Below are positions 11,114 to 60,942 of a stretch of 64,000 nt of DNA, piece by piece. Source of the stretch: Synechococcus sp. CBW1107. GTDB lineage: Bacteria > Cyanobacteriota > Cyanobacteriia > PCC-6307 > Cyanobiaceae. The stretch spans positions 2,604,001 to 2,668,000 of the forward strand of contig NZ_CP064908.1 of NCBI RefSeq assembly GCF_015841355.1, in the 5' to 3' direction. Made by a program: the position numbers and the translations under genes. The notes beneath the pieces are model-generated. The model did no database searches. It had not been told where the DNA came from and worked only from the letters and a program-made list of their open reading frames with translations. Each line of letters begins with the position of its first letter. Position 1 is the stretch's first letter.

Positions 11114-11193
11114 CCGAGAAGGCGATGACGCGGGGATCAGAATGAGTCTCCGGCCGTGGTTCGGCCTCCCCCCGCCTCGGCACCTCGACACAC

Positions 11194-11984: not shown

Positions 11985-13023
11985 ATGCCCGCTTCCCACC
12001 GTCGCTGGTCTCTGCTCGCTCTGGTGGGTCTGACTCTGCTGGTGATCGGCTCTGCAGCGGCCTTCGGACCGCGGCAGCGGGGCCCTCTCCTGGCGGTGGT
12101 GGAGGCACCGTCTCCGCCCGCATCAGAGCCTGAGCCTCCCCCGCCTCCGGTCACGGTTCTGCTCCCTTCGGAGCCGGGTCTGCCCCTGGCGGCCGATGGT
12201 CGCCACTATCCGGTCGTGCCCAGCGATCCCCAGGCCGTAGCCGAGCTGCTGGTGTCACTCGAGGAGGCACTGCGTTCGCCCGCCACCTCGGGGGAGTCGT
12301 TGCCGGCTCTGGGCCACCAGCACCAGGTGATCCTGCGGGTGCTGGCGGTTCGTGAGAGCCAGGCCCAGGAGGTGCGCCGCCGGCTTCCCCCCCGTTGGCA
12401 AGGGGTGCTGGACCATCACCTGGCGGCACGCCGTGCCTTCCTCTCCATGCGCCGCCACGATCCTCCAGGCCGGCAGTGCCACCCTGCCGGCCTGGAGGAT
12501 CGTGGCGCCTGAGCCGGCGGAGAACCTGCTGCGGTACTACCGCAGCGCTGAGGCGGCCACCGGCATCGACTGGGAAGTGCTGGCCGCCGTCAACCTGGTG
12601 GAAACGGGCATGGGCCGCATCGATGGGGTTTCGGTGGCCGACGCCCGCGGGCCGATGCAGTTCCTGCCCACCACCTGGGCCCAGCCTGGTGTCGGCAAGG
12701 GGGATATCCGCGATCCCCACGACGCCATCCACGCCGCCGCCCGCTATCTGGTGCGCCGCGGCGGGTTGAAGGACATTCGCAAGGGGCTCTGGGGGTACAA
12801 CAACAGCGACTACTACGGCAAGGCCGTGCTCCACTACGCCGCCCTGCTGCGCGAGGATCCCGCCGCTTACACGGGTCTCTACCACTGGGAAATCCACTTC
12901 GCCTCCACTGCCGGTGACCTCTGGCTGCCCGTGGGTTATGCCCAGAACAGACCCATACCGGTGGCCGTCTACCTCCAGCGGTTCCCCGCCAGCGCACCGC
13001 CGGCTGCCAACCGTGATGGCTGA
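11985..13023 (+). pseudogene. lytic murein transglycosylase, frameshifted (two-frame gene)
   Basis: An N-terminal frame (11985-12512) encodes a signal/anchor, a Pro-rich linker and the helical region HQHQVILRVLAVRESQAQEVRR. The conserved catalytic part lies in the +1 frame and is open to 13023: PAWRIVAPEP, LLRYYRSAEAATGIDWEVLA, then NLVETGMGRI with the likely catalytic Glu, GPMQFLPTTWA and AARYLVRRGG. The family normally carries both parts in one polypeptide. The frames cross between about 12450 and 12490, exactly at a perfect 24-bp inverted repeat. Either the gene is inactivated, or the sequence there is an assembly error, or a shift is programmed. I favour mutation or artefact. Confidence 0.8.
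12453..12507. repeat. perfect 24-bp inverted repeat with 7-nt loop
   Basis: Left arm 12453-12476 and right arm 12484-12507 are exact reverse complements of each other, separated by TGCCACC. The right arm encodes the conserved LPAWRIVA segment of the transglycosylase in the correct catalytic frame; the left arm encodes nothing family-like. The repeat coincides with the frameshift. There is no T-tract, so it is not a rho-independent terminator. It looks like the product of a hairpin-templated copying event. Confidence 0.93.
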
Positions 13024-15354: not shown

Positions 15355-15615
15355 GTTGCCTGATCGGCTCAGCGGAGGATTTGTGGGATGGAAGAGCCCA
15401 GAGTGAACCACCACCCCAGGCTCCTGCCCTAAGGCATCGTCATCGTGACATGCCGATCCATAAACATCTTCTCACAGGAGGCGAACAGCGAACTCTGGAC
15501 TGACTCATCCATCTGGAGTGACCGACTGAAGTGACTCATCCATGTGAAATCAGGATCAATCCGGATTCAGGACCTGACTGGATGTCAGCAACCGGATCAG
15601 ACGTTCAGCAGACGT
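15355..15615. other. gene-free stretch with short direct repeats
   Basis: 261 nt between the convergent DOMON-like and Nif11 genes, the longest gap in the window. I see no open frame of note. It contains two copies of TGACTCATCCAT at 15501-15512 and 15532-15543 (31-nt period), and a perfect tandem pair of the 11-mer CAGACGTTCAG at 15598-15619 that runs into the Nif11 stop codon. No hairpin with a T-tract was seen. Meaning unknown. Confidence 0.7.
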
Positions 15616-58683: not shown

Positions 58684-58772
58684 GGGCTTGACCGACTGTG
58701 GGGAAAGCCCCGTTCAGGACCGGGGTCTGTTCTACCCGAGAATCGATACAGTCCGCTTTTGATCCGAACCCC

Positions 58773-59213
58773 ATGACCAAAGCTTTGATGGAGACCGAGG
58801 CCGGCACGGTGGAACTCGAGTTGTTCGATACCGATGCCCCGGGCAGCGTCGCGAACTTCGTCAAGCTGGCTGAATCGGGCTTCTACGACGGCCTGGCCTT
58901 CCATCGCGTCATCGATGGCTTCATGGCCCAGGGCGGCTGCCCCAACACCCGCGCCGGCGCCAGTGGCATGCCCGGCACCGGTGGCCCCGGATACATGATT
59001 CCCTGTGAGATCAACAGCCGCAAGCACCAGGCCGGCACCCTCTCGATGGCCCATGCCGGCAAGAACACCGGCGGCAGCCAGTTCTTTCTCTGCCATGACG
59101 CCCAGCCTCACCTCGATGGGGTCCACACCGTGTTCGGTCAGGCCAGCAACGTGGATGTGGTCCTGGCGATCCGCAAGGGCACCCGCATCACGAAGGTGAC
59201 GATCCTGCCCTGA
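58773..59213 (+). CDS. peptidyl-prolyl cis-trans isomerase, cyclophilin type
   Basis: 146 residues from ATG 58773, no signal, so cytoplasmic. [15 protein letters not shown] holds the active-site Arg and Phe, [17 protein letters not shown] the rest of the pocket. Accelerates proline isomerisation during folding; PpiB-like. The segment ITKVTILP ends the protein as usual. Convergent with ribBA. Confidence 0.95.
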
Positions 59214-59236
59214 GGGGGCCTGTCCCGGCCCAGGCT

Positions 59237-59266
59237 GCGCTGGGTCTGAATGTTCAGACCCAGCGC
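59237..59266. terminator. 14-bp inverted repeat straddling the ribBA stop codon
   Basis: GCGCTGGGTCTGAA (59237-59250) and TTCAGACCCAGCGC (59253-59266) are perfect reverse complements with two bases between. The right arm includes the ribBA stop codon and its last codons, and the left arm lies 23 nt after the cyclophilin stop. A likely bidirectional 3' end structure for the two convergent genes; no T-tract. Confidence 0.75.
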
Positions 59267-60942
59267 ACGAAGGCCCCGGGAGTCGTCGCCAGCCGGGGGC
59301 TCGCCTGAGTGAGCTCCTGCAGCGGTCGGCACTCGGGCTCCAGGGTTGCGCTGGGGTGGGCGCTGCGCTGAGCGTCGGGACTCAGCAGCAGGCTCACGGC
59401 CCTGGTGCCGGACCAACCGGCCATCAGGGTCAGGGCTGAGAGCAGATCAGCCTCGGTCAGGCGCTGGTCTCCTCCGGGCGGCTGGGCGAGCAACAGCGCC
59501 AGCTGCGGTTGACCCAGCAGAGCCAGCAGGCGGGGATGTTCCTCCCGCAGCAGCTCCAGCCCCCGCTGGCTGGCCCACTGCCGCAGCTGGGGCCAGTGCT
59601 CGGCTTCCGCCAGCTCCGGCGCCACGGTCGTGGCGGTCCAGGAGATCACCGCCGTGGGCCCGCCCGCCCCCGTGTGCTCCCTGACCGGGCCGGAGTGCAT
59701 CAGATGGCCGAGCTTGGTCTGTTTGGTGAGCAGGTAGGCGGCGTTGTGCTGGCCCGGATCCATCACCAGCGGCACCCGGTCTTCCACCCGCAGCCCGTAG
59801 CCGCCGAGGCCGGCGATCTTGCGCGGGTTGTTGGTGATCAGGCGCAGGTGATGAACCCCCAGATCACTGAGAATCTGCGCCCCGACGCCGTAGTTGCGCA
59901 GGTCGGCGGGAAAGCCGAGGCGCTCATTGGCTTCGACGGTGTCCAGGCCGCCATCCTGAAGGCTGTAGGCCCTGAGCTTGTTGATCAGGCCGATGCCACG
60001 ACCCTCCTGGCGCAGATAGACCACCACGCCTTCGCCGGCGGCTTCGATCATGCGCAGGGCCGCCTCCAGCTGGGGCCGGCAATCACAGCGCAGGGAGCCG
60101 AAAGCATCGCCGGTGAGGCATTCCGAATGCACCCGCACCAGCACCGGTGCGCTGGCCAGCTCGGGGTGCCCCTTGACGATCGCCACATGCTCACTGTCGT
60201 CGAGCTCATTGCGGTACCCGATCGCCCGGAACTGCCCGAAGGCACTCGGCATCTCGGCTTCGGCCTGGCGGCGCACGAAGCGTTCCGTTTCGAGCCGGTA
60301 GCTGATCAGGTCGGCGATGTTGATCAGCCGCAGGCCATGGCGCCGGGCGTAGCTCACCAGCTGGGGCAGGCGGGCCATTGAACCATCGGGATTCTGGATC
60401 TCGCAGATCACTCCAGCCGGATACAGGCCGGAGAGTCGGGCGAGATCGACGGCCGCCTCGGTGTGCCCGGCCCGCTTGAGCACTCCTCCCTGGCGTGCCC
60501 GCAGGGGGAAGATGTGCCCCGGCCGACGCAGGTCCGACGGGCGGCTGGCCGGATGGATCGCCACCTGAATCGTGCGGGCCCGGTCGTCGGCGCTGATGCC
60601 CGTGCTCACGCCGTTTTCGGGCCCTGCATCGACGCTGACCGTGAAGGCGGTCTGGTTGCTGTCCGTGTTGCGGTCGACCATCAGGGGCAGCTCGAGCGCG
60701 TCGAGCCGCTCCCCTTCCATGGCCAGGCAGATCAGGCCACGGGCTTCGGTGGCCATGAAGTTGATCTGCTCGGGCGTGGCGAACTGGGCCGCGCAGATCA
60801 GATCCCCTTCGTTTTCGCGATTTTCGTCATCGACGACGACGATCATCTCGCCGTTACGGATGCCGGCGAGGGCATCGGCGATCGAATCGAAAAGGATCGG
60901 GTCATGGCCCGGATCAGCCAGAGGGGGGGCGTCAGAGGCCAA
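59254..60942 (-). CDS. ribBA: bifunctional 3,4-DHBP synthase / GTP cyclohydrolase II
   Basis: 562 residues from a TTG start ([15 protein letters not shown]). The N-terminal RibB domain has [20 protein letters not shown] and [22 protein letters not shown], then the RibA domain with the zinc Cys set in [16 protein letters not shown] and [19 protein letters not shown] ~140-residue C-terminal extension after [12 protein letters not shown] has no motif I can name; similarly long forms occur in cyanobacteria. Two committed steps of riboflavin synthesis, from ribulose-5-phosphate and GTP. Confidence 0.95.

Follow-up and report, generated by a model that had tools for sequence, protein, structure and literature searches.

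The mechanism of quasipalindrome or template-switch mutation was worked out in Escherichia coli, phage and yeast, and inverted repeats in proteobacteria have reportedly been the subject of an earlier study. As described in PMC7202029, the polymerase takes the nascent strand as its template, and an imperfect repeat becomes a perfect one. The locus presented here resembles the cases of that account (the Ripley model, the E. coli thyA hotspot and the lacZ QP reporters; PMC7202029) in its one-step perfection, its copying from arm to arm and its change of frame. It differs from the E. coli cases described there in being natural and free of reporter selection, with a 24-bp product and a 15-nt tract, in a cyanobacterium. 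In yeast coding genes, too, template switching has been described between the arms of inverted repeats (PMC8604942), and the homogenization of the arms is likewise seen there by comparing relatives; the changes reported there are amino-acid replacements, whereas the frame is broken here and kept in the other cases in this genome. Arm homogenization is further described for RNA genes (PMC8794818). Bacterial coding sequence is stated to have an excess of close inverted repeats, for which others proposed template switching as a cause, and Synechocystis and Thermosynechococcus are named as palindrome-avoiding cyanobacteria (PMC4060949). The excess of short inverted repeats in prokaryotes attributed to Ladoukakis and Eyre-Walker 2008 (via PMC4060949) shares with our case the coding sequence and the proposed template switching. 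However, that evidence, as cited there, is statistical and concerns repeats of 6-9 bp, while single long events are polarized against relatives here. A literature search combining inverted repeat, template switch and cyanobacteria returned no title on such events.

The window, the whole 64,000-nt stretch of Synechococcus sp. CBW1107 that was analyzed, contains a perfect 24-bp inverted repeat at the point where a lytic transglycosylase gene changes its reading frame. The features of the locus are as follows.

11985-12512, + strand: upstream part of the split gene, 175 aa, with its stop TGA at 12510-12512 (ORF reading, comparison with relatives)
12453-12476, + strand: left arm of the perfect inverted repeat, which holds the derived copy (pairing; alignment to eight congeners)
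12457-12471, + strand: minimal overwritten tract, 15 nt vs 8 nt in WH 5701 and the congener consensus, net +7 (alignment)
12472-12476, + strand: GGCAG, ancestral inner stem, pairing with CTGCC at 12484-12488 (same in L012 and L016-L019, 5 of 8 congeners)
12477-12483, + strand: 7-nt loop, ancestral (identical in 5 of 8 congeners, L012-L015 and L017; a single-base difference in L016, L018 and L019)
12484-12507, + strand: right arm, ancestral coding sequence (LPAWRIVA), template of the copy (alignment)
12496, + strand: A common to WH 5701 alone, C in the other seven congeners, with its complement T at 12464 (alignment)
12514-13023, + strand: downstream part with the SLT (lytic transglycosylase) domain, in another frame and separated from the N-terminal part (Pfam)

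All 24 bases of the two arms pair around the 7-nt loop, so the exact reverse complementarity claimed by an earlier sequence-only reading holds, coordinates included. When 64 kb were simulated 20 times under an order-2 Markov model, perfect hairpins (loop 3-20) reached 13 bp at most; the 24-bp hairpin is far beyond chance. It is also the longest perfect one (loop 3-30) in 464 kb of its own genome, where the runner-up has 20 bp, and samples of four congeners totaling 1.58 Mb reach 20 bp at most. As single-stranded DNA, positions 12440-12520 fold with -36.9 kcal/mol (z -7.55), and as RNA with -59.7 kcal/mol (z -6.91); none of 200 shuffles was equally stable in either case. No second copy of the stretch was found across the own genome, beyond the palindrome matching itself.

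In a genus search, 9 of 9 genomes, the own one included, proved to have the SLT part. In the eight others it is 91-96% identical, within an open frame of 344-475 codons vs 230 here. The best 80 of 207 relatives were kept from a contig scan; the eight other genus members (L012-L019, L012 being WH 5701) appear in both lists at matching coordinates and were counted once, and one relative (L036), whose contig begins inside the site, was left out. The sequence-only reading had pointed to the closest Cyanobium genomes, which comes near; by title, one of the eight genus members in the scan is a Cyanobium sp., and the other seven are Synechococcus sp. In all of the 79 informative relatives (best 80 of 207), the frame is open through the site and further into the upstream part, and perfect hairpins (loop 3-20) around the site have a maximum length of 4-7 bp. 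The homologue predicted by that reading, with one intact frame and an imperfect palindrome, is found in WH 5701, the nearest relative, which carries a short imperfect palindrome, GGCAG/CTGCC, around the same 7-nt loop. This ancestral imperfect repeat, a 5-bp stem with a 7-nt loop, is present in WH 5701 and four more of the eight congeners. The same perfect repeat in many relatives, named as the observation that would speak against a mutation, was seen in 0 of the 79.

The alignment also gives the polarity of the change. With WH 5701 and the congener consensus as reference, 15 nt in the left arm, all of them reverse complement of the right arm, stand in place of 8 nt; besides the right arm and the loop, the outer CGCC and the inner GGCAG of the left arm are ancestral. 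The right arm equals that of WH 5701 at 23 of 24 bases, differing at the last, and thus one arm has been kept and the other overwritten. The A at 12496, found among the nine genus genomes only here and in WH 5701, is mirrored by T at 12464. Since the left arm carries the complement of this A, the right arm of this lineage was the source and the left arm the recipient of the copy; the A itself is presumably common to both lineages by descent. WH 5701 is without the hairpin, and the event therefore postdates the split from its lineage.

Allowing one template switch lowers the cost of aligning the site to WH 5701 from 12 to 3 mismatches, with 0 in the copied 18 nt, and for all eight congeners the alignment costs less with the switch (down from 12-17.5 to 3-7). 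The clustered changes are all explained by reverse-complement copying. None of 150 places chosen at random in this region came up to the gain of 9 at the site (maximum 4.5), these controls being drawn from the window and compared with WH 5701 only. It should be mentioned that a gain of 1 or more is seen at 110 of the 150 and one of 3 or more at 11, because the cost model charges nothing for a switch. The chance of one specific 15-mer at the window composition is 2e-9. With the right arm and loop ancestral, the left arm holding the new part and the hairpin shared by none of the 79 informative relatives (best 80 of 207), the template-switch origin suggested by the sequence-only reading is supported, and the locus very probably records a single quasipalindrome mutation on the branch of this strain, after the split from the WH 5701 lineage.

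The ancestor, the polarity and the perfect product match the published quasipalindrome mechanism as described in PMC7202029. We propose that a nascent strand, having just passed the right arm and the loop, would pair its 3′ end (CTGCC, minus strand) with its own GGCAG, use its own right arm as template over about 15-24 nt, and rejoin the true template at the outer CGCC. The GGCAG at 12472-12476 is the probable switch point. Alternatively, an inter-strand switch entering at the outer CGCC could give the identical product. By either route, the old 8-nt tract would become 15 nt, with a perfect 24-bp hairpin, a net +7 nt and the SLT domain out of frame. The GC skew, sampled at 20 points for the strand of the event, was noisy and showed no clear origin.

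The frame change between 11985-12512 and 12514-13023 coincides with the inverted repeat. The upstream part has an N-terminus that looks signal-like by eye, a linker, and a final stretch of about 19 residues that do not resemble the relatives, until TGA at 12510-12512 ends this frame two bases past the right arm. Both of the claims made for the arms hold: the left arm reads as nothing family-like and forces the frame change, and the right arm encodes a conserved piece of the enzyme in the catalytic frame, reading LPAWRIVA in the SLT frame. At this site, the congeners have GSATLPAWRIVA (6 of 8) or GSPTLPAWRIVA (2 of 8), and PAWRI is kept in most wider relatives among the best 80 of 207. The downstream part belongs to the SLT family by scores above the model cut-offs, for SLT_2 (PF13406, 1.6e-7, 31.2 bits, cut-off 24.3) and SLT (PF01464, 5.2e-6, 26.5 bits, cut-off 21.3); Pfam gave no match for the upstream part, 11985-12512. 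Unlike in the 79 of 79 informative relatives (best 80 of 207), the SLT domain is not in frame with the upstream part here. The net gain of 7 nt in the left arm accounts for the frameshift, and since it puts the SLT domain out of frame, the gene, as judged from its reading frames, is probably inactive. The split gene has one copy in the own genome. PF01464 also matches at two other places of this genome, where the open frames have 721 and 155 codons, so the split of this gene need not deprive the cell of all lytic transglycosylase activity.

Little can be seen of decay in the split gene. Compared with WH 5701, its SLT part has a dN/dS of 0.05, and the last 70 codons of its upstream part one of 0.22. 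Lineage-specific amino-acid changes, counted where resolved (7 in the gene and 20 in the neighbors being left out), number 14 here vs 6 in WH 5701, compared to 25 vs 16 in four neighboring genes, which is no clear excess (Fisher p 0.58). The SLT part alone has 5 changes here vs 0 in WH 5701 (p 0.15). Faster decay of the broken gene was considered, and the difference is not significant. The lack of a clear excess fits a recent event, and equally an assembly error. At about 0.13 neutral changes per site since the WH 5701 split, a rate assumed as half of dS 0.255-0.285, all 24 sites of the left arm would have escaped change with a chance of 0.044; by this weak dating, the identity of the arms only hints at an event younger than that split.

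A 400-kb sample of the own genome contains nine perfect hairpins of at least 13 bp (loop 3-30), six of which were looked up in the genus. The one at L112:17640-17685, a 20-bp hairpin, was set aside as lying in an IS-like multicopy element with 27 matches in the own genome, palindromic self-matches counted in. The other five of the six are listed below.

L105:13955-14000, 19 bp
L115:8912-8964, 18 bp
L102:2271-2319, 16 bp
L116:5418-5456, 15 bp
L117:17260-17292, 15 bp

These five were absent from all eight congeners, where the perfect hairpins at the corresponding places have at most 9 bp. Four of them lie within long open ORFs and the one in L102 at an ORF end, the ORFs having been chosen by base composition; the length differences from the nearest congener are 0, +3 or -9 nt. 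By eye, one arm is far more divergent from the congeners, namely the right arm in L105, L115 and L116 and the left arm in L102. In L115, L116 and L102, two or three bases of the other arm are different as well. Each arm of the L117 hairpin has a single base that differs from WH 5701, and plain substitutions could account for it. The switch gain is 8 for L105, clearly beyond the 150 controls (maximum 4.5), and 12 for L102, which is also beyond them but flattered by a length change that is free in the switch model. The gain of 5 for L115 is barely above the control maximum, and those for L116 (4) and L117 (1) are not above it. On these alignments, several of the five hairpins have the appearance of an arm copied from its partner.

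Perfect hairpins of at least 14 bp number 8 in the own genome (400 kb) and 5, 5, 5 and 4 in four congeners (400, 380, 400 and 400 kb); an order-3 Markov null expects 0-1.3 per sample, and all five genomes exceed it. A mutator lineage was considered and set aside, as 8 vs 5, 5, 5 and 4 shows no clear lineage effect. Pooled over 2.04 Mb there are 45 hairpins of at least 13 bp, a count that includes the 24-bp hairpin, the L112 one and a nested pair and leaves terminators unsorted. An orthologous stretch of another sampled genome is available for 21 of them, and 15 of these, the 24-bp hairpin included, are genome-specific while 6 are not. Similar events that keep the reading frame open seem to recur in the genus.

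Two further hairpins are noted. At 59236-59267 of the window, a 14-bp perfect hairpin with a loop of 4 stands between two convergent ORFs, 58698-59213 (+) and 59254-60942 (-), and runs into the end of the second; the orthologous stretches of four congeners have 3-6 bp at most, and the hairpin may be a terminator or another arm copy. At L184:17886-17951 of another genome (G001), 20-bp and 18-bp hairpins are nested, with an arm directly repeated and no orthologue in the sample.

The main rival to a mutation in the cell is a template switch in the tube, i.e. a sequencing, amplification or assembly artefact that leaves the gene of the cell intact. The hairpin is known from a single assembly of one strain, its arms have zero mismatches, and the SLT part is without clear excess decay, all of which would suit this explanation. 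However, the genome is one contig of 3.2 Mb with 99.99% completeness, and the genes from about 9.5 to 15.4 kb show three more gaps relative to WH 5701, of 6, 6 and 12 nt, with no other frame-breaking gap found there. The remaining gaps in this interval are one of 75 nt at 11120, between ORFs, and one of 76 nt at the alignment start; starting at 15488, gaps of 1, 3, 29, 1, 1 and 44 nt follow, the last at the alignment end. Moreover, the five other hairpins that are unique to this genome within the genus occur in open ORFs, as selection in living cells would leave them. We consider an artefact less likely than a mutation, and unlikely overall.

A conserved device, either programmed frameshifting or an RNA hairpin controlling the enzyme, might be suspected from a very stable RNA hairpin just ahead of a stop codon. 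Such a device is very improbable, as 0 of the 79 informative relatives (best 80 of 207) have the hairpin and all 79 have a single frame; a conserved programmed frameshift site was rejected on this absence. Even less credible is the insertion of a small palindromic mobile or repeat element. The palindromic shape would be expected of one, and an IS-like family with a 20-bp hairpin does exist in this genome (L112), but the stretch is single-copy, the left arm is only partly new, and the right arm and the loop both consist of ancestral coding sequence, so that the alignment to the congeners refutes it. A quasipalindrome mutation in the cell is thus the reading we retain.

Taken as such, the 24-bp event is a very clear case of an already known mutation type, a natural instance in which the ancestor, the template, the direction and the consequence are all readable. 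It illustrates that one event can break a gene and yet resemble several substitutions plus an insertion. A broader proposal is about as likely to be right as wrong: arm-copying switches would be a major ongoing source of multi-base change in the coding genes of the genus, with perhaps dozens of recent ones per genome by extrapolation from the sample, filtered by selection to those that keep the frame, and the 24-bp event would be a rare frame-breaker caught before loss or decay. Judging from the hairpin census, a comparison of relatives could yield the rate at which such events happen in wild picocyanobacteria, and it is their recurrence in the genus that is worth following.
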